The notes below the pieces were generated by a model. The model was not told the DNA's origin. It was given only the letters and a program-made list of their open reading frames with translations, and searched no databases. From Pseudoflavonifractor sp. An44 (lineage in GTDB: Bacteria > Bacillota > Clostridia > Oscillospirales > Oscillospiraceae), in NCBI RefSeq assembly GCF_002161675.1, contig NZ_NFIH01000005.1, forward strand, positions 1 to 64,000: a DNA stretch of 64,000 nt, read 5' to 3'. Of the stretch, positions 8,250-28,706 are shown in pieces; the first letter of the stretch is position 1, and each line of letters starts with the position of its first letter. The position numbers and the translations under genes were made by a program.

Positions 8250-8278
8250 GACCTCACAGGAAGAAAGATGAAAAAGAG

Positions 8279-8322
8279 AAGGCCCCGTGCCCAGAGACAA
8301 CCTCTGAGCACGGGGCCTTTTT
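8279..8322 (+). terminator. Intrinsic terminator after the nucleotidase gene
   Basis: Perfect 12-bp stem AAGGCCCCGTGC (8279-8290) with GCACGGGGCCTT (8308-8319), followed by TTT. Confidence 0.85.
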
Positions 8323-8401
8323 GGTGAACCCTGGGGGTGTGCACCCCATAGGATGGAGTGCCGGATTCCCACCAGGGGAGCCGGGAAAGGAGAGAACTTC
8401 G

Positions 8402-8653
8402 ATGGACCGACAATGGAATTTAGCGGCGCTGGCCGAGGGGGAGAGCGGATACGTGCAGTCCGTGTCCACCCACCTGGCCCTCAAGCACCGTCTGGAAGAT
8501 TTGGGACTCATCCCGGGCACCCGGGTGACCTGTATGGCCCGCAGCCCGGCGGGGGACCCCTGTGCCTACCTCATCCGAGGGGCACTCATCGCCCTGCGTC
8601 AGGCAGACGCCCGCCAGATCGCCCTGTGCCCGGCCCACCAGCGGGGGGCGTGA
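8402..8653 (+). CDS. feoA: FeoA-domain ferrous iron transport protein
   Basis: Small cytosolic SH3-like protein (83 aa) that partners FeoB. The pattern fits FeoA: a short lead, EGESGYVQSV, then LKHRLEDLGLIPGTRVTCMA and a C-terminal beta strand with ALIALRQADARQI. AAAGGAGAG lies upstream of the ATG. The stop is three bases before the feoB start, so the pair is translated together. Confidence 0.85.
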   Translation: MDRQWNLAALAEGESGYVQSVSTHLALKHRLEDLGLIPGTRVTCMARSPAGDPCAYLIRGALIALRQADARQIALCPAHQRGA

Positions 8654-11540: not shown

Positions 11541-12728
11541 TTAGCCCTTGCAGGCGTCCAGCAGAGCCTGGGTCATGTCGGTCTTCTCCCAGGGCAGATC
11601 CAGCTCGGAACGGCCAAAGTGGCCGTAAGCAGCGGTCTGGCGGTAGATGGGACGGCGCAGGTCCAGACGGTTGATGATGGCGGTGGGCCGCAGGTCAAAC
11701 ACGTGATTCACGGCCTGCTCCAGCACCTCGTCGGACACCTTGCCGGTGCCGAAGGTGTCCACCAGCACGGACACGGGCCGGGCTACGCCGATGGCGTAGG
11801 CCAACTGCACCTGGCAGCGGTCGGCCAGCCCAGCGGCCACCACGTTCTTGGCCACCCAGCGGGCGGCGTAGGCGGCAGAACGGTCCACCTTGGTGGGGTC
11901 CTTGCCGGAGAAGGCGCCGCCGCCGTGGGGGGCGGAGCCGCCGTAGGTGTCCACGATGATCTTGCGTCCGGTGAGGCCGGAGTCGCCCTGAGGACCGCCC
12001 ACCACGAAGCGGCCGGTGGGGTTGACGTAGATCTTGGTGTGCTCGTCCATGAGGTTTGTGGGGATGGTGGGACGGATGACGTACTCCACCATGTCGGCGC
12101 GAATCTGCTCCAGAGAGGCCTCGGGGCTGTGCTGGGTGGAGATGACCACAGCGTCCACCCGAACGGGGTTCTGGTTCTCGTCGTACTCCACGGTGACCTG
12201 GGACTTGCCGTCGGGACGCAGGTAGTCCAGAGTGCCGTCCTTGCGCACGGCGGTGAGCCGCTGAGCCAGCTTGTGGGACAGAGAGATGGCCAGGGGCATG
12301 AGCTCCTCAGTCTCCCGGCAGGCATAGCCGAACATCATACCCTGGTCGCCGGCGCCGCCGTCCAACTCGTCGGTCATCTCGCCCTCCCGGGCCTCCAGGG
12401 CCTTGTCCACGCCCATGGCGATGTCGGGGGACTGCTCGTCGATGTTGAGCACCACGCCGCAGGTGTCGCAGTCAAAGCCGTACTTGGCCCGGTCATAGCC
12501 GATGTCCCGGATGACCTCCCGGGCCACCTTGGCGATGTCCACATAGCAGGAGGTGGTGATCTCACCCATGATGTGCACCAGACCGGTGGACACGGTGGTC
12601 TCACAGGCCACACGGGCCACAGGGTCCTGAGCCAGAATGGCGTCCAGAACGGCGTCGGAAATCTGGTCACAGATCTTGTCGGGGTGTCCCTCGGTGACAG
12701 ACTCCGAGGTAAAGAAACGTCTTGCCAT
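11541..12728 (-). CDS. metK: S-adenosylmethionine synthetase
   Basis: Makes S-adenosylmethionine from methionine and ATP in the cytosol. The 395-aa protein has the normal length. It begins with [21 protein letters not shown] (quoted in part: [16 protein letters not shown]) for ATP and metal binding. [12 protein letters not shown], the glycine-rich [18 protein letters not shown] loop and the C-terminal DLRP segment follow. An S-box riboswitch and terminator precede it on the same strand, so high SAM should stop transcription. Confidence 0.97.
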
Positions 12729-12763
12729 AAGTAATCTTCCTTTCTTTGTACGGTAAAAGCGTC

Positions 12764-12919
12764 AAACAAAAAATCCGCCGGACAGTCCGGCGGATGGAGA
12801 CAGCGTGTCCTCATCTTGCGCGCGAGTGTAACACTCGTCTCCGCCGGATTTGGCACCTTGCTCAGGTAAGCAGGTTGCCGTGGCTTCATTGGGCCGATCC
12901 CTCCGCCACTCTCGATAAG
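12764..12919 (-). ncRNA. SAM-I (S-box) riboswitch with intrinsic terminator, metK leader
   Basis: Read on the minus strand, the aptamer begins CTTATCGAGAG (12919-12909) and continues GGCGGAGGGATCGGCCC, AATGAAGCC, GGCAACC and GGTGCCAAATCC, the conserved S-box core. CTTATC closes P1 with GATGAG (12815-12810). The expression platform is a 23-nt stem-loop at 12773-12795 (ATCCGCCGGAC/GTCCGGCGGAT) followed by a T-run. The aptamer segment AAATCCGGCGGAG can pair with the terminator's 5' arm and is a candidate anti-terminator. Direct placement before metK confirms the role. Confidence 0.93.
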
Positions 12920-12989
12920 GCAATGTTCAATTGCGGGTAACATTATATCTTTACACCACTGACTTTGTCAATGGCAGAAACATGGAAAA

Positions 12990-13346
12990 TCACTTCTTGG
13001 GCCGGGGTCGAAACAGGAAAGATGCCACAAGACCCAGGGTGATGGCCAGGGCGATACCCCCAGCGGTGGCGGTGAGTCCTCCGGTGAGCACCCCCAGCCA
13101 GCCCTCCTCCTCCACGGCCTTGCGCACCCCCTGGGCCAGGGTGTGGCCGAATCCGGTGAGGGGGACGGTGGCCCCAGCTCCTGCCCAGTCCACCAGAGGC
13201 TGGTACAGCCCCAGTCCGCTGAGGATGACCCCCGCCACCACGTAAAACACTAGAATCCGGGCGGGGGTGAGGCTGGTGCGGTCCAAGAGCACCTGACCGA
13301 TGACGCAGAGAATGCCGCCCAGCAAAAAGGCGTTGAAGTATTCCAT
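12990..13346 (-). CDS. spoVAE: Stage V sporulation protein AE (SpoVAE/AEb)
   Basis: Small integral membrane protein (118 aa) of the SpoVA channel that moves dipicolinic acid into the forespore and out at germination. It starts MEYFNAFLLGGILCVIGQ and has about four hydrophobic helices with ARILVFYVVAGVILSGLG and GGIALAITLGLVASFLF, and a basic end. Its ATG overlaps the spoVAD stop (TGATG) with AAGGAGG upstream, so the genes are translationally coupled. No terminator is evident before the metK leader. Confidence 0.9.
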   Translation of the reverse strand: MEYFNAFLLGGILCVIGQVLLDRTSLTPARILVFYVVAGVILSGLGLYQPLVDWAGAGATVPLTGFGHTLAQGVRKAVEEEGWLGVLTGGLTATAGGIALAITLGLVASFLFRPRPKK

Positions 13347-14356
13347 CAGCTTGCACCTCCTTCCAGCACAATGGCGTGGCAGATGCCGGGGATAGACTCC
13401 CCCTGCATGGTGGACACGGGGGAGAGCAGCGCCCCGGTGGGGCAGAAGAGGACCCGCTTCCATCGCCCGGACTGGAGGCCGGGCAGGACCATGGTGGTGA
13501 GCACGGCGGCGCTGCACCCGCACCCGGAGCCGCCGCAGTGGACGTCCTGGGCCTCCCGCTCAAAGAGGAGCAGGCCGCAGTCGTTGTAGTTGGACAGGGG
13601 ACACCCGTCCCGGGAGAAGAAGTCGGAGACGATCTCCCACCCCAGCTGTCCCAGGTCCCCGGTGAGGATGAGGTCGTAATCGGCGGGACTGCGCCCGGTG
13701 TCCCGGAAATGGGCCCGCAGGGTGTCGTAGGCCGCCGGAGCCATGGCCGCCCCCATGTTGGCGGGGTCTTTGACCCCCTTGTCCATCACCTTGCCGATGG
13801 TGACGGCGGACACCACCGGGCCCTTCTCCCCTTGGGAGGAGAGCACCACCGCCCCGGCGGCGGTGGCGGTCCACTGGGCGGTGGGGGGCCGCTGGCAGCC
13901 GTACTCCAGAGGGGTGCGGTACTGCCGCTCGGCGGAACAGAAGTGGGAGGAGGTCATGGCGGCGGCGTGGTGGCCCCAACCCCCGGAGAGGAGCAGGGAG
14001 GCCAGCGCCAGGCTCTCCCCCATGGTGGAGCAGGCCCCATAGAGGCCCAGATAGGGCACCCCCGCCCACCGGGCGGCAAAGGCGGAGCTGATGCACTGGT
14101 TGAGAAGGTCTCCCGCCAGAAGAAAGTCCAGCTGCTGGGCCTCCAGCTTGGCCCGTTTCAGCGCAGACTCCAGGGCCAGCTGCTGCATGGTGGTCTCCGC
14201 CATCTCCCAGCTGGACTGCTGGAAGGTGTCGTCTTCACAGGTGTGGTCAAAAAAGCGGCCCAGGGGGCCCTCTTTCTCCTTGCGGCCTCCGGCGCTGCCG
14301 TAGCCCACGATGACGGGGGGGCGGGAGAGTTGATAGGTTTGGGACGAGCGGGGCAT
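13346..14356 (-). CDS. spoVAD: Stage V sporulation protein AD (SpoVAD)
   Basis: Thiolase-fold protein (336 aa) that binds dipicolinic acid for uptake into the forespore. Typical segments are PPVIVGYGSAGG near the N-terminus, LGLYGACSTMGESLALAS (site of the thiolase-like Cys), AVTIGKVMDKGVKDPANMGAAM (quoted in part: GKVMDKGVKDPANMG), LILTGDLGQLG and CGGSGCGCSAAVL. The ATG at 14356 follows GAAGGAG; a TTG six codons earlier sits on that site. It is followed by spoVAE but not preceded by spoVAC, which normally heads this operon. A sigma-G-like promoter lies upstream. Confidence 0.93.
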   Translation of the reverse strand: MPRSSQTYQLSRPPVIVGYGSAGGRKEKEGPLGRFFDHTCEDDTFQQSSWEMAETTMQQLALESALKRAKLEAQQLDFLLAGDLLNQCISSAFAARWAGVPYLGLYGACSTMGESLALASLLLSGGWGHHAAAMTSSHFCSAERQYRTPLEYGCQRPPTAQWTATAAGAVVLSSQGEKGPVVSAVTIGKVMDKGVKDPANMGAAMAPAAYDTLRAHFRDTGRSPADYDLILTGDLGQLGWEIVSDFFSRDGCPLSNYNDCGLLLFEREAQDVHCGGSGCGCSAAVLTTMVLPGLQSGRWKRVLFCPTGALLSPVSTMQGESIPGICHAIVLEGGAS

Positions 14357-14390
14357 AGGCAAAGACTCCTTCAAGAAAATGTCTTGCCTC

Positions 14391-14419
14391 TAGTATGCGC
14401 ACCGACAAGGAATTTATCA
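14391..14419 (-). promoter_or_regulatory. Candidate sigma-G promoter of spoVAD-spoVAE
   Basis: On the minus strand, TGATAA (14419-14414) and CATACTA (14397-14391) are 16 bp apart. CATACTA is the usual sigma-G -10 sequence; the -35 match is moderate. It lies 35 bp before the spoVAD start, fitting forespore expression. Confidence 0.55.
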
Positions 14420-14514
14420 CAAAAGCCAGGGAGTGCTAGAAAAATTCACAAAGGGGTGGTATAATGCACTCTGTTGGAAAATTTTTTGAGAAATGTTATG
14501 GGAGGAATCCTGTT

Positions 14515-15132
14515 ATGTCGGAACAGACCAGATACATCGGCTATATCTGTCCCGTGTGCGGCAAGGCTGTGGTGGTGGAGCGCACCGCCTTTGCCCTGGC
14601 CGCCGGGGACCAGACCATCCCCTGTCCCTGCGGCAAGTCTCAGCTGGAATTTCACCAGCAGGGGGAGCACTGTCAGGTGACGGTGCCCTGTCTCTTCTGC
14701 GCCAAGGACCACCACACTGTGTGTTCCACCCGGGCCATGATGGAGGAGAAGCTGCTGGTGCTCTCCTGCTCCGCCTCGGGGCTGGGCTGCTGCTTCATCG
14801 GAGAAGAGGAGGCGGTGTTCGGCGAGATGGAGAAGCTGGAGCGGGCTGTGGACAAGCTGCGCATGGATGACCAGGAGGAGACCCGGGGCACCTTCCTGGA
14901 CGAGATCGTCATGGGCGAGGTGCTGGCGGAACTCAAGGACATTGCAGGCCGCAAGGGCATCTCTTGCGGCTGTGGCTGCGACCAGTACGGTATCAAGGTG
15001 GGGTACTCCTCGGTGGATGTGGTGTGCGCTGGATGCGGTGCCACCCTGCGGCTGCCTGCCGCCACCCTGGACGACGTGGACGAAATTTGCGCCCGCTACA
15101 CCCTCACCATTCCTGGAAAGAAGGAAGAGTAA
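14515..15132 (+). CDS. Cys-rich zinc-ribbon-like protein of unknown function
   Basis: A 205-aa soluble protein not recognised as a named family. It has several paired-Cys motifs: CPVCG at about residue 12, PCPCG, a CLFC with nearby His, GLGCC, CGCGC and CAGCG. These suggest two or three zinc-ribbon modules separated by a charged helical segment (EMEKLERAVDKLRMDDQEE). GGGAGG lies eight bases before the ATG. An extended -10 promoter (TGGTATAAT, 14457-14465) lies upstream. Its stop directly abuts the thioesterase ATG, so they form an operon. Metal binding is inference. Confidence 0.6.
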   Translation: MSEQTRYIGYICPVCGKAVVVERTAFALAAGDQTIPCPCGKSQLEFHQQGEHCQVTVPCLFCAKDHHTVCSTRAMMEEKLLVLSCSASGLGCCFIGEEEAVFGEMEKLERAVDKLRMDDQEETRGTFLDEIVMGEVLAELKDIAGRKGISCGCGCDQYGIKVGYSSVDVVCAGCGATLRLPAATLDDVDEICARYTLTIPGKKEE

Positions 15133-15879
15133 ATGAGTCATCAAATCACTGAAGTCACCTTCCGGGTGGGCTCCTTGGATGTGGACATGTTCAACCAGTG
15201 CCGACCCTCGGCGCTGCTGGGCTATTTGCAGGAGGCCGCCACCCAGGCGGCCATCCAGCTGGGGGCCTCGGGGCCGGAGATTTTTGAGCGGTATCACTGC
15301 CTATGGATGGTGTCCCGCAACTGGGTGGAGCTGTACGCCCCTCTGCGGTGGAACGATGCGTTCACCATTCAGACCTGGCACCGGGGCGGCACCGGGGTGG
15401 CCACCTACCGGGACTTTGACATCTTCCGGGACGGGAAGCTCATCGGCCAGGGTGTGGCCCAGTGGGTGATGGTGGACGCCGATACCCACAAGCTGTTCCG
15501 GCTGCGGGATGTCACCGAGTTCCAGGGCACCGACGGCGGGGAACGGAACAAGTCCATCAAGCTCCACCGGGTACCCATGCCAAAGGAATTTGGTGCGGCA
15601 GGGAAGCGGTATCTCGGGTATTCGGATACCGACATCAACGGCCATATCAACAACAGCCACTATGCCGACTATGCCTGTGATGCCCTCCATATGGAGCGTA
15701 ATGGCAAGGGAAAGTACATCCGGGACATCCAAATCTCCTACATTAGTGAGTGCCGGGCGGGGGAAGAGCTGTCCATGGCCACCGCCGTGGAGGGAGAGCA
15801 CCTCTTTGCCCGTGGCATCGGCCCAGAGGGTGAGGTCCGGTTTGAATACGCCATGACCTTGGCGGACGAGGAACAATAA
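15133..15879 (+). CDS. Acyl-ACP thioesterase
   Basis: Double-hotdog thioesterase (248 aa) expected to release fatty acids from acyl carrier protein in the cytosol. The N-terminal hotdog has GYLQEAATQAA and LWMVSRNWVELYAPLRWND. The C-terminal hotdog has the NGHINNSHYADYACDAL motif that carries the Asn/His part of the catalytic network in this family. Length matches bacterial members. Its ATG follows the preceding stop with no gap, and the P-type ATPase gene begins two bases after its stop. Confidence 0.85.
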   Translation: MSHQITEVTFRVGSLDVDMFNQCRPSALLGYLQEAATQAAIQLGASGPEIFERYHCLWMVSRNWVELYAPLRWNDAFTIQTWHRGGTGVATYRDFDIFRDGKLIGQGVAQWVMVDADTHKLFRLRDVTEFQGTDGGERNKSIKLHRVPMPKEFGAAGKRYLGYSDTDINGHINNSHYADYACDALHMERNGKGKYIRDIQISYISECRAGEELSMATAVEGEHLFARGIGPEGEVRFEYAMTLADEEQ

Positions 15880-15880
15880 G

Positions 15881-18325
15881 ATGATAAAGCGAAACAAGAG
15901 ACAGAGAGGGGACGGCCAGCTCCGGCAGCCCGTCCCCATGGATCGCTATTTTCCCACCCCGGAACAGGGCCTGACCCAGGCCCAGGCCGCCCAGCTGGCC
16001 GCCGCCGGATGGCACAACCGGGTGGAGGAGACCAACCTGAAATCCACCGGGGAAATCATCCGGGAAAACACCCTGACCTTCTTCAACCTGGTGTTTGTGG
16101 TGCTGGCGGCGCTGCTGGTGCTGGCGGGCAGCTTCCGGGACATGTTCTTTCTGCTCATCGCCGCCATCAACTCCCTCATCGGCATCGTCCAGCAGCTGCG
16201 CTCCCGGGCCACCCTGAGCAAGCTGGCTCTGGTGGCTCAGGCCCGGGTCAAAGTGGTGCGGGGCGGACAGCTGGGCACCGTGCCTGTGGACCAGCTGGTG
16301 CGGGAGGACATTGTGGAGCTGGGGGCTGGAGACCAGATTCCCGCCGACGGCCCGGTGTTAGTGGGCCAGGTGACGGTGAACGAGGCCCTCATCACCGGCG
16401 AGGCGGACCCCATTGTGAAGAATCCCGGGGACCCGCTGCTCTCCGGCAGCTTTGTAGTGTCTGGCAAGTGCCGGGCCCGGATGGATCAGGTGGGGGCGGC
16501 CAGCTACGCTGCTCGTCTGGCCCATGAGGCCAAGGCGGACCAGGGAGCGGGCAAGTCCGAGATGATGAAGTCTCTGGACCGCCTGATTCGGGTCATCGGC
16601 TTCGCCCTCATACCCCTGGGTATCGCCCTGTTTTGCAACGAATTTCTGGTGCAGGAGCAGAGCTTCTCCACCTCCATCACCTCCATGGTGGCCGCCCTCA
16701 TCGGCATGATTCCCGAGGGCCTGTACCTCTTGACCAGCGTGGCCCTGGCTGTCTCGGTGATGCGCCTGGCCCAGCGGAAGACTCTGGTCCACCAGATGAG
16801 CGCCATCGAGACCCTGGCCCGGGTGGACGTGCTGTGCGTGGATAAGACGGGCACCGTCACCCAGCCGGACATGTCGGTGCAGGAGCTGGTGTGCCTGGAC
16901 CCCCAGATCTCTCCCCAGCAGGTGGAGGGAGTGCTGGGTGCCTACTACCAGGTGATGGACGCCGACAACGACACCGCCAAGGCTCTGGCCCGGCGCTTCC
17001 AGCAGGGGAACGGCTGGCAGGCCCAGCAGGTGGTCCCCTTCACCTCCGCCAATAAGTGGTCGGCGGTGGTGTTCCAGGACCACGGCTCCTACGTGCTTGG
17101 AGCCCCGGAATTCATCCTCAAAGAGGGCTACCAGGCCATTGCCCACCGGGTGGAGCCCTACCAGCAGGCGGGCTGCCGGGTATTGCTGCTGGCCCAGTGC
17201 GACACGCCTCCCACCCAGGAGGGCGGCTTGCAGGGCGCGGTGGTCCCCGTGGCCCTGGTGGTGGTGGCAAACCCCATCCGCCCTGAGGCCCCGGACACCT
17301 TCCGCTACTTCGCTAAGTACGGGGTGGACGTGAAGGTCATCTCCGGTGACAACCCCCAGACCGTGTCACGGGTGGCCCAACAGGCGGGCATTGCCGGGGC
17401 GGAGCGATTTGTGGACGCTGCCACCCTCAAGGAGCCGGGGGACTATGACCGGGCCGTGCAGGACTATAACGTCTTTGGCCGGGTGACCCCGGACCAGAAG
17501 CGCAAGCTGGTGAAGGCCCTGCAAAAGGCGGGGCACACCGTGGCCATGACTGGCGACGGCGTCAACGACGTGCTGGCCCTGAAAGACGCCGACTGCGGCA
17601 TCGCCATGGCCTCGGGAGCTGAGGCCGCCTGCCAGGTGGCCGAGCTGGTGCTGCTGGACTCCGACTTCTCCGCCATGCCCCGGGTGGTGGAGGAGGGCCG
17701 ACGGGTCATCAACAACATCCAGCGGGCCGCCGCCCTCTACCTGGTGAAAAACATCATGTCGGTGTTTCTGGCCCTCATCACCCTCATTGCCGGGTTCCCG
17801 TACCCCTTTGTCCCCATTCAGCTCACCCTCATCAGCGCCTTGACCATCGGCATTCCCTCCTTTGTGCTGGCGTTGGAGCCCAACCATGAGCTGGTGCGGG
17901 GCCGATTCATGCACAATGTGCTCCGCCGGGCGCTGCCGGGAGGCCTGACCAACATCGTGCTCATTGTGGGCCTGGAGCTGTTCACCTACGCCTTTACCTT
18001 CCAGCGGGCTACCTTGTCCACCCTGTCCACCGTCACCATCGGGGCGGTGGGACTGCTGGTGATCTACTATGTGGCCCGGCCCCTGGACAAGAAGCGGTGG
18101 GCCCTGCTGGGGGCCATGACCGTGGCTATGGTGGTGGCCGTGGTGTGGTTTGGACCCTTCTTCGAGCTCACCGCCCTGGACCTCCAGTCCGCCCTGGTGG
18201 TGACGGTGTTCCTGCTGCTCACCCCCTCGGTGATCTACGCCTTTGAGACTGCCTTTGAGTGGGGCAGCCGCATCAAAGGGGAGTGGCTCAAGCGCAGAAA
18301 GCAGCGTGTTAAAACTGAACAATAA
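15881..18325 (+). CDS. P-type cation-transporting ATPase (CtpE-like)
   Basis: Membrane ATPase of 814 aa that transports a cation using an aspartyl-phosphate intermediate. Motifs in order are NEALITGEADP (actuator loop, TGEA instead of TGES), IGMIPEGLYLLTS in membrane helix 4, DVLCVDKTGTVT (phosphorylated Asp), KWSAVVF in the nucleotide domain, VISGDNPQTV and MTGDGVNDVLALKDADCGIA. The PEGL motif and absence of N-terminal heavy-metal CxxC motifs resemble the CtpE/Ca2+-type group. Ion specificity is not provable here. The stop is followed by a strong terminator. Confidence 0.88.
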   Translation: MIKRNKRQRGDGQLRQPVPMDRYFPTPEQGLTQAQAAQLAAAGWHNRVEETNLKSTGEIIRENTLTFFNLVFVVLAALLVLAGSFRDMFFLLIAAINSLIGIVQQLRSRATLSKLALVAQARVKVVRGGQLGTVPVDQLVREDIVELGAGDQIPADGPVLVGQVTVNEALITGEADPIVKNPGDPLLSGSFVVSGKCRARMDQVGAASYAARLAHEAKADQGAGKSEMMKSLDRLIRVIGFALIPLGIALFCNEFLVQEQSFSTSITSMVAALIGMIPEGLYLLTSVALAVSVMRLAQRKTLVHQMSAIETLARVDVLCVDKTGTVTQPDMSVQELVCLDPQISPQQVEGVLGAYYQVMDADNDTAKALARRFQQGNGWQAQQVVPFTSANKWSAVVFQDHGSYVLGAPEFILKEGYQAIAHRVEPYQQAGCRVLLLAQCDTPPTQEGGLQGAVVPVALVVVANPIRPEAPDTFRYFAKYGVDVKVISGDNPQTVSRVAQQAGIAGAERFVDAATLKEPGDYDRAVQDYNVFGRVTPDQKRKLVKALQKAGHTVAMTGDGVNDVLALKDADCGIAMASGAEAACQVAELVLLDSDFSAMPRVVEEGRRVINNIQRAAALYLVKNIMSVFLALITLIAGFPYPFVPIQLTLISALTIGIPSFVLALEPNHELVRGRFMHNVLRRALPGGLTNIVLIVGLELFTYAFTFQRATLSTLSTVTIGAVGLLVIYYVARPLDKKRWALLGAMTVAMVVAVVWFGPFFELTALDLQSALVVTVFLLLTPSVIYAFETAFEWGSRIKGEWLKRRKQRVKTEQ

Positions 18326-18326
18326 G

Positions 18327-18363
18327 AAAAACAGCCTCTGAGTGCACCTCAGAGGCTGTTTTT
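18327..18363. terminator. Bidirectional terminator between the P-type ATPase and HAD genes
   Basis: A perfect stem AAAAACAGCCTCTGAG with CTCAGAGGCTGTTTTT encloses a short loop. It overlaps the last codons of the minus-strand HAD gene and ends both convergent units. Confidence 0.85.
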
Positions 18364-19009
18364 AGCCCAAAATCTGGGCCAGTTCTTCAAAACTGTGGGC
18401 GATGTGGGTGGACCCGGCCTGGGTCAGTTCCTCCTGGCTGCCATAGCCGAAGGTGACGCCGATGGAGTCCAGGCCGTTCTCCTGGGCCCCGTGGATGTCG
18501 TGGAGGCGGTCGCCCACCATGACGCACATGGCCTTGTCCGGGCACTTTTCCCCCAACCGGGCGAATACCTCCCCAATCACCTCGCCCTTTTTGGTGCGGG
18601 TGCCGTCCAGGCAGCTGCCTACAATCTGGTCAAAGTAGCCGTCGATGTGGAAGTGCTCCAGAATTTGACGGGCGAACACCTCCGGCTTGGAGGTGGCCAG
18701 ACACACGGTCTTTCCCGCCGCTTTCAGCTGGGCCAGAAGGGGCTGGGAGCCGGAAAACACTTTGTTTTCAAAAATACCCTTCTGGGAGAAGTATTCCCGG
18801 TATTTCTCCACCGCTTTCTGGGCCGTGGGAAGGTCAAAATGGTAGAACTCCATAAAGGAGTCGATGAGGGGCGGGCCGATGAAGGGGGTGAGTCGGTCCG
18901 GGTCCTCGTGGATGCCGAAGGAGGCCAGAGCATAGGCCACCGAGTTGGTGATTCCCTCTTTGGGGTCGGTGAGGGTGCCGTCTAAGTCAAAGAAAATGTG
19001 GGTGTACAT
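18362..19009 (-). CDS. HAD-family phosphatase, phosphoglycolate phosphatase-like
   Basis: Soluble hydrolase (215 aa) of HAD subfamily IA. Motif I is FFDLDGTLTDPKEGI with the nucleophile and acid Asp residues, motif II is CLATSKP, the Lys lies near TRTKKGE and motif III is MVGDRLHDIHGA. The alpha-helical cap lies between residues 15 and 85. Gph, PpaX and pyrimidine 5'-nucleotidase relatives share this pattern, so the substrate is uncertain. It is a single minus-strand gene. Confidence 0.85.
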   Translation of the reverse strand: MYTHIFFDLDGTLTDPKEGITNSVAYALASFGIHEDPDRLTPFIGPPLIDSFMEFYHFDLPTAQKAVEKYREYFSQKGIFENKVFSGSQPLLAQLKAAGKTVCLATSKPEVFARQILEHFHIDGYFDQIVGSCLDGTRTKKGEVIGEVFARLGEKCPDKAMCVMVGDRLHDIHGAQENGLDSIGVTFGYGSQEELTQAGSTHIAHSFEELAQILG

Positions 19010-19146
19010 AAGTAGCTTCCTCGTTTGTATGGGATGGAACTATTATACCGGAAGTGGCGGGCAGGGACAAGACCAAGATGGAGTGGTTGAGTTCACCTCG
19101 TCCCTGTGCTATCATGGGGAGCAATGACATTCAAGGAGGGGAGCCC

Positions 19147-22616: not shown

Positions 22617-22737
22617 AAAGAAAAAGAAGTCCACAAACGTGGACTTCTCGCTCACACACTGTGAGGCCAGTCGAGCTGGCGGGTTTGGCAAAGCCGTATT
22701 TGAACCTGTCGTGTTGTCATAGATGGTAGTCTAGACG
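22617..22737 (-). ncRNA. tracrRNA of the type II CRISPR-Cas system
   Basis: On the minus strand a transcript of about 120 nt would start near 22737. Its anti-repeat (around GACTACCATCTATGACAACA, then CGACAGGTTCAAA) pairs with the CRISPR repeat in two blocks: the repeat's GTTTGA with TCAAAT-side bases, and TCGTGTTGT with ACAACACGA, separated by a bulge as in known crRNA:tracrRNA duplexes. Downstream are stem-loops GCCAGCTCGACTGGC and CTCACAGTGTGTGAG. It ends with the terminator AGAAGTCCAC/GTGGACTTCT (22625-22648) and a T-rich tail. Position upstream of and antisense to cas9 matches other type II-A loci. Confidence 0.88.
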
Positions 22738-22743
22738 CTTTGT

Positions 22744-22797: not shown

Positions 22798-25700
22798 ATG
22801 AAGGAGCAGTATTATGTAGGCCTGGATATTGGCACCGAGTCGGTGGGGTGGGCCGTCACCGACACCCAGTATCAGATCAAGAAAGTACACGGGAAAGCCT
22901 TATGGGGAGTGCGGCTGTTTGATGAGGCGCAGAGTGCCCGGGACCGGCGAGGCTTTCGGGTGGCCCGGCGGCGTATCCAGCGGCGGCGTCAGCGTCTGGA
23001 TTGGCTGCAAGAGCAGTTTGCCCAGGCGGTGGGAGAGGTGGACCCGGGCTTTTTCCAGCGCATGGAGGAGAGCCGATTCTGGGAGGAGGATAAGCGGGGG
23101 GAGGTACCTCTGGGGAAATATACCCTGTTTGGGGACAAGTCCTTTACGGATTGGGACTACCACCATACCTATCCCACCATCTACCACCTGAGAAAAGAAT
23201 TGATCTTGTCCCAGCAGCCCCATGATGTGCGCCTGGTCTACCTGGCCATCCATCATATTCTGAAAAATCGAGGCCATTTTCTCTATGGAGATATGTCTCT
23301 GGACGCCATCTCCCTGGACAAGGGGGTGGAACGGCTCAATGGGGCTTTGGAGCGGGAAGAGGCGGATCCTCTGTCTACCCAGCGTTTGGGAGAGGTGCGG
23401 GAGATCCTTCTGGATCACAAAATACGTAAGACTGCCAAGAAGGCAAAACTGCTGGAGCTATTCGGGTTGAGCAAAGAGAAAACCACAACCACCTCTGTGG
23501 TGGAGTTATTGACGGGCAGCAAGGTGAGTTTATCCGCGCTATATGGGGAGGAGGTGTCCTCGGAGGAACTCCAGAAATTGAGTTTGGAAGATGACTTTGA
23601 TGGGGTAGAGGGCCCTTTGCTGGCCGCTGTGGGTGATCGCATCGAACTGGTGTTGGCCGCCAAAGAGGTGTATGACTGGGCATTGCTGGAAAAGATGCGG
23701 GATGGGGAGCAATACCTCTCGTTTGCCAAGGTAAAAGTCTACGAAAACCACCGGCACCAGCTGGAGCAGCTGAAAGAGGTGGTGAAACGGTACGGCGGAG
23801 AGGACTGCTGCCGTGAGATGTTCCATGGGACCAGAGAGGGGAACTACCCCTCGTATGTGGGGAAGGACTGCAAGAGCAGTCGGTGCGATTACGATACCTT
23901 CTGCAAGTATGTGTTAGGCAAGATGAAGGGGTGGAAGGACGCCGACGAGACCACCAAGGAGATCTATGCCCGGTTGGAGCGGCGGGACTTTCTGCGCAAA
24001 CCCACCAGCAAGGACAATGGGGTGATTCCCCATCAGCTTCATCAGATGGAGCTGGAGAAGATTTTGGCCAATGCCCAGGGATATCTGCCTTTTTTGTCCC
24101 AGCGAGATGAAAGCGGCCTGACGGTGGCCGAGCGCATTGTGCGTATGTTTGCCTTCCGCATTCCCTACTATGTGGGCCCCCTGCAATCCGGCGGCCCTCA
24201 CAGCTGGGTGGTGCGCAGCGGGGAGAAGATTTATCCCTGGAACTTTGACCAGGTGGTGGATCTGGAACAGTGCAGGGAACACTTTATTACCCGCATGACC
24301 GCCAAGTGCACCTACATTGGGGAGGATGTGCTGCCCAAGGACTCTCTGCTGTATAGCCGCTTTATGGTGCTCAACGAGCTGAATAACCTGCGTATCAACG
24401 GAAAACCCATTTCGGTGAAGCTGAAACAGGACATCTATACCAATTTGTTTGGGAAAGGGCGGAAGGTGACCCAGGCGGGGGTGAAAAAGTACCTCATGGT
24501 CCACCATGGTATGACCCAAGAGGACACCATCAGTGGCCTGGCCGGCGATTTCCAAGCGACTTTAGCCCCCTGGCGGCAATTTGGCTGGTTGCTGAGCCGT
24601 GACGGCGGAGCGGAGATGGTGGAAGAGATCATCCGCTATAAAGTGTTGTTTGGGGAGGATAAGAAGCTGCTGCGGGGCTGGCTGGACAAGACATATGGGG
24701 ACAAACTCACCCCCCAGGAACAAAAGCAGGTGTTGGGTGTGAAATGCTCCGGTTGGGGCAGGTTGTCCCGACAATTTCTCACCCAGCTGTTCCATGTGGA
24801 CCAGAACACCGGGGAGGCGTTCTCCATCATGGATCTGCTGTGGAACAGCAATGAAAATTTGATGCAGCTGCTCAGCGGGCGGTATACCTTTGCCCAGCAG
24901 GTGGAGGAGTACCGCAAGCGCAAGCAGGCGGAACACAGCCAGACCTTGAAGGAGTATCTGGCGGAGTGTTACGCCTCTCCCGGCATCAAGCGGGGCATTG
25001 ACCAGACCATGGCCATTGTGCGGGAGATCGCCAAAATCATGGGTGACCCACCCGCCCGGGTGTTTGTGGAGATGGCCCGGGGGGAGGAGAAGGACAAAAA
25101 GGGGAAGGTACCCAAGTCGCGAAAGGCGCAGTTGGTGGAACTGTATCAGAAGTGCGGAGAGGAGAGCAGTCCGCTCTTTGAGCAGCTGCAAGGGGAGCCG
25201 GAGGGAAATTTACGCCGGGACAAGCTGTATCTGTACTACACCCAGATGGGAAGGTGTATGTACAGCGGGGATGTGATCTCCATTGCGGAGCTGGACTCTC
25301 GCTATGACATCGACCACATCTACCCCCAGAGCAAGACCAAGGATGACAGCCTGGAAAACCGGGTGCTGGTGCGCCGGGAGCTCAACAGCAAGAAGGGAGA
25401 TACCTATCCCATCAGCGGTGAGATACGGGAGCATATGCGGGCCTTTTGGACCATGCTCAAGGGGAAGGGATTGATCAGCGAGAAAAAGTATCAGCGGCTG
25501 ACACGTGCCACCGGATTTGACGCGCAAGAGCTGTCCGGCTTCATTGCCCGCCAACTGGTGGAGACCCGGCAGTCCAGTAAAATTGTGGCCCAGCTGTTGG
25601 AGCAGACCTTTGGGGCGTCCACCGAGGTGGTGTATGTCAAGGCGGGGAACGTCGCCCAGTTCCGCCAGGATCAGCGGATCACCCCGGACGGACAGTCCAT

Positions 25701-26844
25701 CCAGGCGGGGGAATGCAAGGGAAAAGCCTATCCCCAGGATCCCTTGTTTGTCAAGTGCCGGGAGGTCAACGACTTCCACCACGCCAAGGATGCCTACCTC
25801 AACATTGTGGTGGGCAACGTCTACCATGTGAAATTTACCCGCAGCCCTGCCAATTTCCTGCGGGAGAAGGACAACCGGTATAGCCTCAACCGAATGTTTG
25901 ACTTTGACGTTCAACGGGGAGGAGAGGTGGCCTGGAAGGCGGGGGAGAGCATCCAAACGGTGCGCCGCACGATGGCCAAGAACAACATTCTCTTTACCCG
26001 GCGGGCGGCTATGGAGATGGGGGGACTGTATAAGCAGACAATAAGAAAAGCGAGAGAGGCAGGAGAGTACGAACTCAGCATAAAAAGTACAGATGATAGA
26101 TTGGCAGATGTACAACGGTACGGGTATTATACTGGAATCAAGACTTGCGCTTTTTTTGCGGTTCGGCATACACCAAAAAAGAAAAGCGTGGTGACGCTTG
26201 AGCCCATTTTTACCATGTACCGGGAGCGATATGAGCGAGATCCTATTGGGTACTGCACGGATATTTTGAAGCTGCACGAACCACGCATTCTGGTTCCTTG
26301 CATCAAGATCAACGCCCTGGTGGCCTTTGACGGGTTCCGTATGCACATCTCCGGCCGAACAGGCAGTCAAATTATCTATAAGAATGCCAATCAACTGGTC
26401 ATTGAGCCCACATGGCAGCAGTACATCAAAGGCATTGTCAAATATCTGGAGCGGTGCAAAGTGGCGGGGCGGGAGCTGGAGCTGACCCAGTTCGACGGGA
26501 TTACAAAAGCCAAAAATGTTTTACTATATGATGTGCTTCTGTCAAAGCTGGAAAATCATCTGTACTCTGTGCAATATGACTCGATTGCAAAAGTGTTTAG
26601 GGACAAACGAGAAGCATTTGTTGACCTGAGGGAGGCAGACCAGTGTCGTCTGCTCATCCAAATTCTCATATTATTTAGAAATAGAGCGACTGATATAGAT
26701 ATTAGTTTGATAGGTGGGCCAAAAAATAAGGGAAGAATTCGGACCTCCAATATGGTAAATCCAAAAAAGACAAAGCAATTTACTATCATAAATCAGTCTG
26801 TCACTGGCTTCTATGAGCAGACCGTGGATCTGCTGCGCGTATGA
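22798..26844 (+). CDS. cas9: Type II-A CRISPR-associated endonuclease Cas9
   Basis: RNA-guided DNA endonuclease of 1348 aa. RuvC-I is YYVGLDIGTESVGWAV with Asp10, followed by the Arg-rich bridge helix (residues about 48-75). RuvC-II is VFVEMARGEE with Glu758. The HNH site is YDIDHIYPQS with His840, and Asn854 and Asn863 are present. RuvC-III is FHHAKDAYLN with His995 and Asp998. All catalytic residues are therefore intact. GTGGGAG precedes the ATG. The end overlaps the cas1 remnant by ATGA. Parts of the C-terminal third (about 26040-26150 and 26480-26800) are clearly AT-richer than the rest, suggesting a mosaic PAM-interacting region. Confidence 0.97.
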   Translation: MKEQYYVGLDIGTESVGWAVTDTQYQIKKVHGKALWGVRLFDEAQSARDRRGFRVARRRIQRRRQRLDWLQEQFAQAVGEVDPGFFQRMEESRFWEEDKRGEVPLGKYTLFGDKSFTDWDYHHTYPTIYHLRKELILSQQPHDVRLVYLAIHHILKNRGHFLYGDMSLDAISLDKGVERLNGALEREEADPLSTQRLGEVREILLDHKIRKTAKKAKLLELFGLSKEKTTTTSVVELLTGSKVSLSALYGEEVSSEELQKLSLEDDFDGVEGPLLAAVGDRIELVLAAKEVYDWALLEKMRDGEQYLSFAKVKVYENHRHQLEQLKEVVKRYGGEDCCREMFHGTREGNYPSYVGKDCKSSRCDYDTFCKYVLGKMKGWKDADETTKEIYARLERRDFLRKPTSKDNGVIPHQLHQMELEKILANAQGYLPFLSQRDESGLTVAERIVRMFAFRIPYYVGPLQSGGPHSWVVRSGEKIYPWNFDQVVDLEQCREHFITRMTAKCTYIGEDVLPKDSLLYSRFMVLNELNNLRINGKPISVKLKQDIYTNLFGKGRKVTQAGVKKYLMVHHGMTQEDTISGLAGDFQATLAPWRQFGWLLSRDGGAEMVEEIIRYKVLFGEDKKLLRGWLDKTYGDKLTPQEQKQVLGVKCSGWGRLSRQFLTQLFHVDQNTGEAFSIMDLLWNSNENLMQLLSGRYTFAQQVEEYRKRKQAEHSQTLKEYLAECYASPGIKRGIDQTMAIVREIAKIMGDPPARVFVEMARGEEKDKKGKVPKSRKAQLVELYQKCGEESSPLFEQLQGEPEGNLRRDKLYLYYTQMGRCMYSGDVISIAELDSRYDIDHIYPQSKTKDDSLENRVLVRRELNSKKGDTYPISGEIREHMRAFWTMLKGKGLISEKKYQRLTRATGFDAQELSGFIARQLVETRQSSKIVAQLLEQTFGASTEVVYVKAGNVAQFRQDQRITPDGQSIQAGECKGKAYPQDPLFVKCREVNDFHHAKDAYLNIVVGNVYHVKFTRSPANFLREKDNRYSLNRMFDFDVQRGGEVAWKAGESIQTVRRTMAKNNILFTRRAAMEMGGLYKQTIRKAREAGEYELSIKSTDDRLADVQRYGYYTGIKTCAFFAVRHTPKKKSVVTLEPIFTMYRERYERDPIGYCTDILKLHEPRILVPCIKINALVAFDGFRMHISGRTGSQIIYKNANQLVIEPTWQQYIKGIVKYLERCKVAGRELELTQFDGITKAKNVLLYDVLLSKLENHLYSVQYDSIAKVFRDKREAFVDLREADQCRLLIQILILFRNRATDIDISLIGGPKNKGRIRTSNMVNPKKTKQFTIINQSVTGFYEQTVDLLRV

Positions 26845-27050
26845 GCTGGCGGGTGGTGGTGGACACCGCTCCGGACAGATTTGAAAAGGAAGAAAAAATT
26901 GCACTTTTGCAGCTTCTGAACCGGGAAGTACGGGTAGATGGCAAGAGGCAGTATCTGCTCTACGCCCTGCATCTGTACTGCGCCAGCCTGTTTCGGGCGC
27001 TGCAGGGTGGCGATGTGTCAGAAATCACATGGGTGGAATATGAGTGGTAG
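26841..27050 (+). pseudogene. cas1: cas1 remnant with large in-frame internal deletion
   Basis: A 69-codon frame. The first seven residues, MSWRVVV, match the start of type II-A Cas1. From about residue 12 the sequence (RFEKEEKIALLQLLNREVRV and on to WVEYEW) matches the Cas1 C-terminal region. Full-length Cas1 is about 290 aa, so some 220 codons, including all catalytic Glu/His/Asp residues, are gone while the frame is kept. The ATG overlaps the cas9 stop and the end overlaps the cas2 start, as in intact operons. No integrase activity can remain. Confidence 0.85.
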
Positions 27051-27147
27051 ATTTATGCGGGTGATCGTGTTTTTTGACCTGCCTGTGGGCACATCGGCCC
27101 AGCGGCGCAGCTACAACCAGTTTCGCAGAATGCTGGTGATTTTATGA
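27040..27147 (+). pseudogene. cas2: cas2 remnant with in-frame internal deletion
   Basis: A 35-codon frame, [18 protein letters not shown] and on through [10 protein letters not shown], matching the first strand and helix of type II-A Cas2. It ends LVIL and a TGA that overlaps the csn2 ATG (ATGA). The short end looks like the natural Cas2 C-terminus, so about 65 of the usual 100 codons are missing, in frame. The start overlaps the cas1 stop by 11 bases. Together the remnants keep an unbroken chain of coupled starts from cas9 to csn2. Confidence 0.75.
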
Positions 27148-27836
27148 AGCTGATGCACCCTTTGCTGTCCCGCCCGTTGGAATTGGGACGGAACCGGGTC
27201 CCGGTGCTGGCAGTGGAGTCTCCCCAGCTCTTTCGTCAATGGGTGTTGGATTTATCCGGTCAGAGCCAAGGGGAGGAGGGAAACTGGGTGCTCTCTTGCC
27301 AGGACGAGGTGTTGGACTGCGGCCAGCACCTGCTGGTGGTCAGCGACCTTCTCCACCTCTCTCTGGAGGACCGGAAGCTGCACCATCGCTTTCAGACACT
27401 GGTACACTCTCTGATGTGGGAGGAACTGGAGGTGGAAAGTACACATCTCCAGCAGAGCATTCAGGGCTATCTGGCCCGTTTGGCGTCCCAAATTCCGGTT
27501 CCCGTGGAATATGAGGAGGGGGATGCCGTGTGGCCTCTGCTCAAAGGGTTGAAATTTCAGCCGGTGCTGGATGGTGTGTCTCCGCTGGAGCGCTTGACCC
27601 AATACCTGGAGCTGTACCATCAACTGATGCCCAGGCCCTGTGTCCTGTTGGTGGGGATGCACCTGTACTTTTCCCGGCAGGAGTTGGAGCAGTTTTACCA
27701 GATGGCCCTTTATGAGAAGTGGAATGTCCTGGTGTTGGAACCACACCAGTGCCCTCCACAGCCCCAGGAGCAGTGGTGCATCATAGATCACGATGGCTGC
27801 GAGTTAAGGGTTGATTCCCCGGGAGAAATCCCGTAA
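27144..27836 (+). CDS. csn2: Type II-A CRISPR-associated protein Csn2
   Basis: A 230-aa protein placed where csn2 lies in type II-A operons, last before the array. Csn2 forms a ring on DNA ends and acts with Cas1-Cas2 in spacer acquisition. [14 protein letters not shown], the strand [20 protein letters not shown] (quoted 20 residues), [18 protein letters not shown] and [20 protein letters not shown] fit the family; sequence conservation in Csn2 is low, so order and length weigh most. The gene appears intact although its partners are deleted. Its stop codon lies inside the array promoter's -10 element. Confidence 0.8.
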
Positions 27837-27839
27837 AAT
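27811..27839 (+). promoter_or_regulatory. Promoter of the CRISPR array, inside the csn2 3' end
   Basis: TTGATT (27811-27816) and TAAAAT (27834-27839) are 17 bp apart. Transcription would begin near 27846, giving a leader RNA of about 60 nt before repeat 1. Confidence 0.65.
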
Positions 27840-27857
27840 AGAATTGGTCAAGAGAAA

Positions 27858-27901
27858 ACCATCTAAAACAACACAGCGCAATGTCGTGGCGTACACTCTC
27901 A
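27858..27901 (+). repeat. Inverted, interrupted repeat copy in the CRISPR leader
   Basis: ACCATCTAAAACAACAC (27858-27874) is the exact reverse complement of repeat positions 12-28, and ACTCTCA (27895-27901) is complementary to repeat positions 4-10; a 20-nt stretch interrupts them. In the leader RNA these can pair with repeat 1 (27919-27935 and 27911-27917) to make a 17 + 7 bp structure. It is a closer match to the repeat than the tracrRNA anti-repeat is over the 17-nt block. Confidence 0.85.
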
Positions 27902-27907
27902 TTTGAG

Positions 27908-28659
27908 GTTTGAGAGTCGTGTTGTTTTAGATGGTAGTCAAACACACGCTTTCTCGCATACACGGTTGTTGCCGTTTGAGAGTCGTGTTGTTTTAGATGG
28001 TAGTCAAACCCTCCAAAGAATTCCAGGAGACTCAGGACAGTTTGAGAGTCGTGTTGTTTTAGATGGTAGTCAAACGCACGTAGTCCTTCCCCTCTGCCTC
28101 ATAGAGTTTGAGAGTCGTGTTGTTTTAGATGGTAGTCAAACTTTGGCCGGACTCCTTGAAGGACTGCATGGGTTTGAGAGTCGTGTTGTTTTAGATGGTA
28201 GTCAAACCTCAGCGCCTACATCATGTCGCTCATATCGGTTTGAGAGTCGTGTTGTTTTAGATGGTAGTCAAACCAAGAGCGAGAATGAGCGCACCGCAAA
28301 GGAGTTTGAGAGTCGTGTTGTTTTAGATGGTAGTCAAACCGGACGACATCACCGCCCATGCCATCAGCCGTTTGAGAGTCGTGTTGTTTTAGATGGTAGT
28401 CAAACCTGGAGGGGACAGGACTCTGGGGAGCGTCTGTTTGAGAGTCGTGTTGTTTTAGATGGTAGTCAAACGAGGCCATGGAAAACTTACAAAGGGCCGA
28501 GGTTTGAGAGTCGTGTTGTTTTAGATGGTAGTCAAACGGTCTGCTCCAGCTGGACAAAGGACACTGTGTTTGAGAGTCGTGTTGTTTTAGATGGTAGTCA
28601 AACACGGGAGTGGTCCGTCACTCCAACATCAGAGTTTGAGAGTCGTGTTGTCTTAGATG
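27908..28659 (+). CRISPR. CRISPR array: 11 full 36-bp repeats, 11 spacers of 30 bp, degenerate last repeat
   Basis: Repeats start at 27908, 27974, 28040, 28106, 28172, 28238, 28304, 28370, 28436, 28502 and 28568, each 36 bp, beginning GTTTGAGAGTCGTG and ending GATGGTAGTCAAAC. All 11 spacers are exactly 30 bp. The twelfth unit at 28634 matches for 26 bases with one change and then diverges, marking the leader-distal end. The pairing with the minus-strand tracrRNA shows crRNAs are made from the plus strand. No spacer match elsewhere in the window was noticed. Confidence 0.99.
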
Positions 28660-28668
28660 CAAGGGGAA

Positions 28669-28706
28669 AAAACCTGCGTGCAGCCTTTTCGCTGCACGCA
28701 GGTTTT
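28669..28706. terminator. Terminator between the CRISPR array and the ClpE-like gene
   Basis: Stem AACCTGCGTGCAGC with GCTGCACGCAGGTT, flanked by A-runs and T-runs, so it works for both convergent units. Confidence 0.85.

Follow-up and report, generated by a model that had tools for sequence, protein, structure and literature searches.

What can a CRISPR (clustered regularly interspaced short palindromic repeats) locus still do when its genes for spacer uptake have been reduced to fragments, and how does it come into such a state? This question is raised by a type II-A locus of Pseudoflavonifractor sp. An44 (assembly GCF_002161675.1), which lies in positions 1–64,000 of contig NZ_NFIH01000005.1; this whole stretch of 64,000 nucleotides is called the window below. 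All cas genes of the locus are on the + strand, with the array downstream, and between cas9 and csn2 only short frames stand in the places of cas1 and cas2 (Table 1). Our reading, to which we give a probability of roughly 0.85, is that the locus lost its own spacer acquisition through two deletions flanked by direct repeats and kept the parts for interference.

Remnants of cas1 and cas2

A first-pass annotation had described a 69-codon cas1 frame and a 35-codon cas2 frame, and these were confirmed by gene calls, PADLOC profiles and alignment with a sister species. Residues 4–63 of the cas1 frame aligned with positions 241–301 of the 335 positions of PADLOC Cas1_II (E-value 2.2e-9), and residues 2–32 of the cas2 frame aligned with the start of Cas2 profiles (best 2.2e-13 in the PADLOC search), each remnant being matched at a single end. 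The Pfam scan gave no match for the cas1 frame and a Cas2 match below cut-off for the cas2 frame; the NCBIfam scan gave Cas1 at an E-value of 0.12 and Cas2 below cut-off, respectively. The gene overlaps described earlier also held, with ATGA at cas9/cas1, 11 bases at cas1/cas2 and ATGA at cas2/csn2.

Assignment to type II-A was supported by Csn2 (TIGR01866, 118 bits against a cut-off of 35), by a Cas9 with RuvC and HNH motifs and a Cas9_PI domain, by a putative trans-activating CRISPR RNA (tracrRNA) with an anti-repeat, and by an array on the cas-gene strand behind a leader that ends in ATTTGAG. Adaptation-competent II-A loci carry full-length Cas1 and Cas2, whereas here the two frames have 69 and 35 codons versus 291 and 106 residues in the sister. 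Retention of the effector and array with the adaptation genes gone is the composition of an interference-only locus, and the window locus appears to belong to this class.

Table 1. Positions of the type II-A locus features in the window.
Feature	Position	Strand	Description
Putative tracrRNA	22620–22740	-	Anti-repeat 22708–22731; terminator-like hairpin at 3' end
cas9	22798–26844	+	1348 aa, type II-A; TIGR01865 5.6e-280; Cas9_REC, Cas9_PI
cas1 remnant	26841–27050	+	69 codons, start MSWRVVV; corresponds to sister codons 1–7 and ~230–291
cas1 deletion junction	26853–26862	+	One copy of 10-bp direct repeat GTGGTGGTGG; comparison with L004
cas2 remnant	27040–27147	+	35 codons; corresponds to Cas2 codons 1–33 and last codons
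cas2 deletion junction	27132–27139	+	One copy of 8-bp direct repeat GCTGGTGA; comparison with L004
csn2	27144–27836	+	230 aa, intact; TIGR01866 4.6e-34; 99% identity to sister protein
Putative array promoter	27811–27839	+	TTGATT-17-TAAAAT; overlaps csn2 3' end
Leader	27837–27907	+	Terminates in ATTTGAG; anti-repeat 27858–27874
CRISPR array	27908–28669	+	12 repeats of 36 nt (last degenerate), 11 spacers of 30 nt

Two deletions between direct repeats

When Csn2 was used as bait, the locus was present in one of the 41 other genomes of the genus, a metagenome-assembled genome (MAG) of the sister species Candidatus Enterenecus avicola (DVKO01000109.1; locus L004, the same as L070). Both genes are full there (cas1, 291 aa; cas2, 106 aa). 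Relative to them, 666 bp of cas1 and 213 bp of cas2 were absent from the window, and as both lengths are multiples of three, the in-frame internal deletions proposed in the first pass proved real. Alignment with a relative's full genes, which had been suggested for finding the deletion ends, placed them at direct repeats of 10 bp in cas1 (GTGGTGGTGG) and 8 bp in cas2 (GCTGGTGA): two copies of each were found in the sister and one at the window junction. Neither sister gene contains a longer direct repeat that is non-tandem. A single substitution relative to the sister was located 17 bases right of the cas1 junction. The cas1 deletion spans codons 8 to ~229 and includes E147, H203 and E218, which were invariant in 14 Cas1 proteins and which we take to be the catalytic residues. 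The cas2 remnant retains the first 33 of 106 residues. The losses look recent because the remnants differ from the intact sister genes at 1 of 287 aligned bases and because csn2 is still intact in the window; positions 27127–27866, which include csn2, were 98.4% identical to the sister.

These observations are best explained by two separate deletions between the direct repeats, most likely through replication slippage or a similar process, which would have left Cas1 without its catalytic part and Cas2 with a third of its length; the ends are given by comparison with the sister. The locus has thus very likely lost its own spacer uptake, and its own proteins would be unable to add a new spacer.

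That both deletions kept the reading frame probably reflects the fact that the longest repeats in coding sequence are often in phase. In the sister cas1, 15 of 16 repeats of at least 8 bp were in phase, tandem ones included, and in 62 full cas1 genes from the wider scan described below the proportion was 418 of 690 (cas2, 25 of 54). With ties split, the longest repeat was in phase in 43.1 of 62 cas1 genes (~70%) and in 29.2 of 62 cas2 genes (about even); on the assumption that deletions use the longest repeat, both would be in frame with a probability of about one third. Because long repeats are so often in phase, two in-frame deletions are unremarkable. The first pass had instead suggested that selection for translational coupling preserved the frame, with ribosomes running through cas1 and cas2 into csn2. 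The frames, the intact overlaps, an intact csn2 with a ratio of nonsynonymous to synonymous substitution (dN/dS) of 0.07 versus the sister, and in-frame cases elsewhere (an internal cas1 deletion in L080 and a cas1-to-csn2 junction in L051) are consistent with such selection. However, it is not needed when the longest repeats lie at the junctions and in-phase repeats dominate cas1, and 5 of 6 cas1-to-csn2 junctions in other loci were out of frame. Besides, Csn2 is not known to act outside spacer uptake and would be of little worth without Cas1–Cas2. We therefore regard coupling as improbable.

It had also been suggested that the 69- and 35-residue peptides are functional in themselves. Both remnant frames are open and have plausible starts, but we found no support for such a role: the remnants were seen in a single genome, Cas1 has lost its catalytic part, the direct repeats explain the junctions and other losses leave different remnants, all of which makes this idea hardly credible. 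An assembly in which full genes of the strain had been collapsed, a further suggestion of the first pass, is very unlikely. Although the genome is a draft of 51 contigs, direct repeats as short as 8 and 10 bp are well below the word lengths normally used in assembly, the contig spans 139 kb, the genome is rated 100% complete and 0% contaminated, one repeat copy is kept at each junction, and the full Cas1 and Cas2 of the genome are found only at another locus.

Cas9, tracrRNA, promoter and leader

In addition to cas9, the tracrRNA, array promoter, leader and 11 spacers appear to remain. Residues D10, E758, H840, N863, H994, H995 and D998 of Cas9, which are invariant columns among 8 aligned Cas9 proteins, were retained, and dN/dS versus the sister was 0.12 over cas9 codons 1–1066. 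The anti-repeat of the putative tracrRNA was 92% identical over 24 nt when compared with the array repeat, and its predicted fold ends in an 11-bp hairpin with a U run behind it (z -3.1). Also, the leader anti-repeat can pair with the first repeat as a 17-bp stem (z -6.0); hairpins of this kind between leader and repeat have been described for II-A systems (Liao et al. 2022, according to the accessible part of PMC13187072). According to the accessible part of PMC5382924, a Streptococcus thermophilus locus requires the ATTTGAG motif for uptake, and 87 of 167 II-A loci conserve it. With these parts retained, it is plausible that interference of the locus is intact, with the stored spacers probably still transcribed and used by Cas9. 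The first-pass statement that the locus interferes and cannot adapt was accordingly sound as regards adaptation, since Cas1 has lost codons 8 to ~229 and Cas2 two thirds of its length; as regards interference it is a prediction from sequence.

Several further features of this region were observed. Similar leader stems could be written by eye in seven relatives, with bulges or mismatches in six, and L071 showed one apparent compensatory change (by eye). E. avicola, in spite of its full cas1 and cas2, is without the last 41 bp of the leader (27867–27907), ATTTGAG included. Its own uptake may be impaired too, in which case each of the two copies observed in the genus would have lost this function by a route of its own. 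The PAM-interacting part of Cas9 (PAM, protospacer-adjacent motif; window 25998–26792) is a mosaic relative to the sister, with a synonymous distance of 1.05 versus 0.05 for codons 1–1066, and contains a conserved stretch at 26247–26501; the two Cas9 proteins may have different PAMs. In addition, positions 12352–19055 were 86.6% identical to L004 whereas the stretches from cas9 to the leader were mostly 95–99% identical, a contrast which suggests that the locus may have been exchanged between species. Promoter-like sites at shuffle p <= 0.05 were found in 10 of 15 lost loci (those without full cas1 and cas2, see below) versus 24 of 54 others, L117 being without a leader-repeat junction by the pattern used; that the array promoter is the right-hand limit of deletions in other loci is suggestive only.

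Spacers and their targets

Spacers 4 and 7 matched one phage-like IMG/VR contig at 28/30 and 27/30 positions. On the same contig the other nine spacers had at least 10 mismatches and 220 shuffled spacers had at least 9. The targets of spacers 4 and 7 are followed on the 3' side by TAGGCGG and GTGGCTA, respectively. Both targets lie in one frame (7232–8644), which, named by eye, looks like a DnaB-type helicase gene. For 8 of the 11 spacers (1–7 and 11), IMG/VR was scanned for exact matches to the last 22 nt, and one of the eight found a contig; spacer 7 was missed, its match having mismatches. Phage records searched with the array gave only two chance-level matches (E-values 0.8 and 3), and a search of plasmid records for the region gave none at the sensitivity used. 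In the An44 genome itself there was no full spacer match outside the array and only short matches at chance level, and self-targeting was rejected on this ground as a driver of the loss.

Recurrence of the loss in related loci

A look for the same remnants in sister genomes had been suggested, and the exact deletions were found in one genome only. The same outcome, however, has been reached many times by other deletions in related II-A loci. A Csn2 search matched 11 of 400 genomes in the family: besides the window, there were 9 whose cas1 and cas2 are full, and G124, in which cas1 ends after codon 20 and is followed by the end of csn2. A search with Cas9_PI matched 21 of 394 genomes in the order. 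Full cas1, cas2 and csn2 were present in 16 of these, and cas1/cas2 were lost in the other 5: in addition to the window, cas1 runs into the array in G236, cas1 codons 1–58 and two repeats remain in G689, cas1 is fused in frame to the end of csn2 in G754, and in G498 profiles detected none of cas1, cas2 and csn2, and no array was seen within 13 kb. A Cas1 search of 394 genomes sampled in the same manner yielded 16 full Cas1 proteins (413–499 bits), each of them in a genome with Cas9_PI. Seven further Cas1 proteins (183–217 bits) were of another kind; 5 were beside a Cas9-like frame (tblastn), one beside a long frame with a similar end, and one without. In this sample of the order, uptake was lost with Cas9 retained in 5 cases and the reverse was seen in none.

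In a wider scan, a Cas9 alignment was searched against 84,980 species, and genes were called by profiles in the best 80 of 496 loci. Full cas1, cas2 and csn2 were found in 59 loci, 13 were without cas1 and cas2, three had full cas1/cas2 and ended within or before csn2, and five ended within or at the end of cas9. Thus, 13 of 75 readable loci lost cas1/cas2 with a long cas9 frame retained, in 11 deletion patterns: L138, L139 and L148 share one pattern, and L111 is G124 again. MAG binning errors are uncorrected in these counts, and L107, L130 and L139 carry doubtful organism names.

In a FastTree tree of 89 Cas9 proteins, which had two long branches (L102 and L058), the 18 lost rows implied at least 12 state changes, 9 of them forced by supported branches. 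Shuffled labels gave a mean of 16.5 changes, more than were observed, and therefore the losses appear to be many and partly clustered. The three sisters L087, L094 and L095 themselves had differing deletion ends. Arrays were found in 16 of the 18 lost loci.

State of the loci after the loss

One possible continuation, which is compatible with our reading and concerns only what follows the loss, is that the whole locus is decaying and cas9 will be next. Losses scattered over the Cas9 tree singly or in small clusters, the apparently recent losses and still intact csn2 of the window, the shortness of the arrays of lost loci, and two lost loci in which no array was seen would all agree with decay. 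On the other hand, each of the 17 other lost loci keeps one long cas9 frame of at least 1314 codons from stop to stop, which is partly an effect of ascertainment, and Cas9 dN/dS in the trio L138/L139/L148 (0.11–0.16) was near that of 8 intact pairs (0.04–0.13, some saturated at synonymous sites). The values were 0.11–0.15 for L087/L094/L095, whose deletions are different, and 0.08 for L111/L117, which is saturated. If the loss was ancestral in the trio, selection on Cas9 continued after it. We consider decay of the whole locus possible, with the odds leaning against it.

Lost loci had a median array length of 7.5 repeats (n = 14), compared with 19 (n = 30) in the others (Mann-Whitney p 1.2e-5). 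For this count 84 loci were entered, of which 31 with cut or no arrays were excluded, including the lost loci L077 and L138; nine more had been dropped beforehand (L139 and 8 cut ones), and L053 was not entered. The k-mer repeat count misses degenerate repeats: for example, L148 had 5 repeats by count and 7 readable.

The following points weigh against our reading. The presence of the exact deletions in a single genome makes a strain-level or laboratory event possible. The wider scan favours long cas9 genes, and the fraction of 13/75 may overstate how often cas9 outlives cas1. In two of the 18 lost loci, L053 and L139, no array was seen. Whole-gene cas9 dN/dS versus the sister was 0.33, because the PAM-interacting part is very different from that of the sister. 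The short-array result was weaker after correction for kinship, its direction being unchanged: with the threshold set at 12 or 15 repeats, 9 independent pairs gave 5.5 to 0.0 and 5.7 to 0.0, respectively (median p 0.03 in both cases), and with a threshold of 9 they gave 5.3 to 0.5 (median p 0.125). Finally, L138 and L148 have the same deletion junction at the same genomic place and 99% identical cas9 genes, and their spacers (4 seen in L138 and 6 in L148) have none in common. No Cas1 was found in either assembly, for which completeness is not given. Differential trimming of a long ancestral array, array exchange, deletions that recurred with identical ends, or spacer gain in the absence of an own Cas1 could each account for this difference.

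This last case bears on the alternative that the array gains spacers in trans, either through another Cas1–Cas2 of the genome or by array exchange between strains. The only other Cas1 and Cas2 matches over the cut-off in the An44 genome were at G000:C20:17702–18950, where both are full and the gene order, named by eye, looks like type I-C. The array beside them is large, with 128 repeat copies in the stretch read (L018) versus 12 in the II-A array. In trans uptake between unlike repeats was reported for the VI-B and II-C systems of Flavobacterium columnare (accessible part of PMC8092290), and for cas9-only Campylobacter coli an exchange of arrays was suggested (accessible part of PMC4607530). 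However, the repeats of the two An44 loci appeared unrelated by eye, lost loci have short arrays, and among the 17 other lost genomes 10 had no Cas1 match and 3 only their own remnant (4 had another Cas1). We consider spacer gain in trans unlikely.

Significance and comparison with known systems

The window locus offers a clean natural case of a Cas9 system with a frozen memory, for which both the deletion ends and an intact sister are known. The counts suggest that about one fifth of II-A loci in this group (5/21; 13/75) are without uptake and have a long cas9 frame, which bears on the cost of adaptation and on the useful life of a fixed spacer set. Data sets which require all four cas genes, as in the accessible part of PMC5382924, would miss such loci. 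Interference-only CRISPR loci are already known as a kind, cas9-only II-C loci being in print (PMC4607530, as far as accessible), and the part worth following is the frequency and repeated origin of the state in type II-A. We found no survey of II-A loci with natural cas1/cas2 deletions in the literature covered, outside which most subscription papers fall. It may be speculated that loss of uptake with Cas9 kept is a regular II-A state in gut Clostridia, a fixed inherited memory under selection whose spacers in some lineages (L138/L148) are replaced without a genomic Cas1 by array exchange or an unknown route; at present we think this proposal doubtful.

Among known systems, the locus is closest in organization to the Clostridia II-A loci of the Cas9-Cas1-Cas2-Csn2, ATTTGAG group, with which it shares gene order, overlaps, csn2, Cas9 domains, a 36-nt repeat, the ATTTGAG leader end and an upstream tracrRNA, and from which it differs in that cas1 and cas2 are remnants. 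The following comparisons refer to the accessible parts of the sources. The cas9-only loci of Campylobacter coli likewise have cas9 without cas1/cas2; they are II-C rather than II-A, and in-frame remnants are not described in that part of the source (PMC4607530). In Mycoplasma gallisepticum from house finches, a cas9-cas1-cas2-csn2 locus also underwent natural loss of function, but there cas9 was truncated or the cas block lost, whereas in the window cas9 is intact and cas1/cas2 are lost (PMC11893278). In a I-B system of Bacteroides fragilis, cas1 was truncated by a natural deletion and short arrays with at most 8 spacers were left; in contrast to the window locus, effector genes were also lost (PMC5704556). 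Similarly, the VI-B locus of F. columnare is an interference locus without its own Cas1–Cas2 in a genome that has another system. F. columnare borrows Cas1–Cas2 from that system, whereas in An44 the other repeat is unrelated and no sign of borrowing was seen (PMC8092290).

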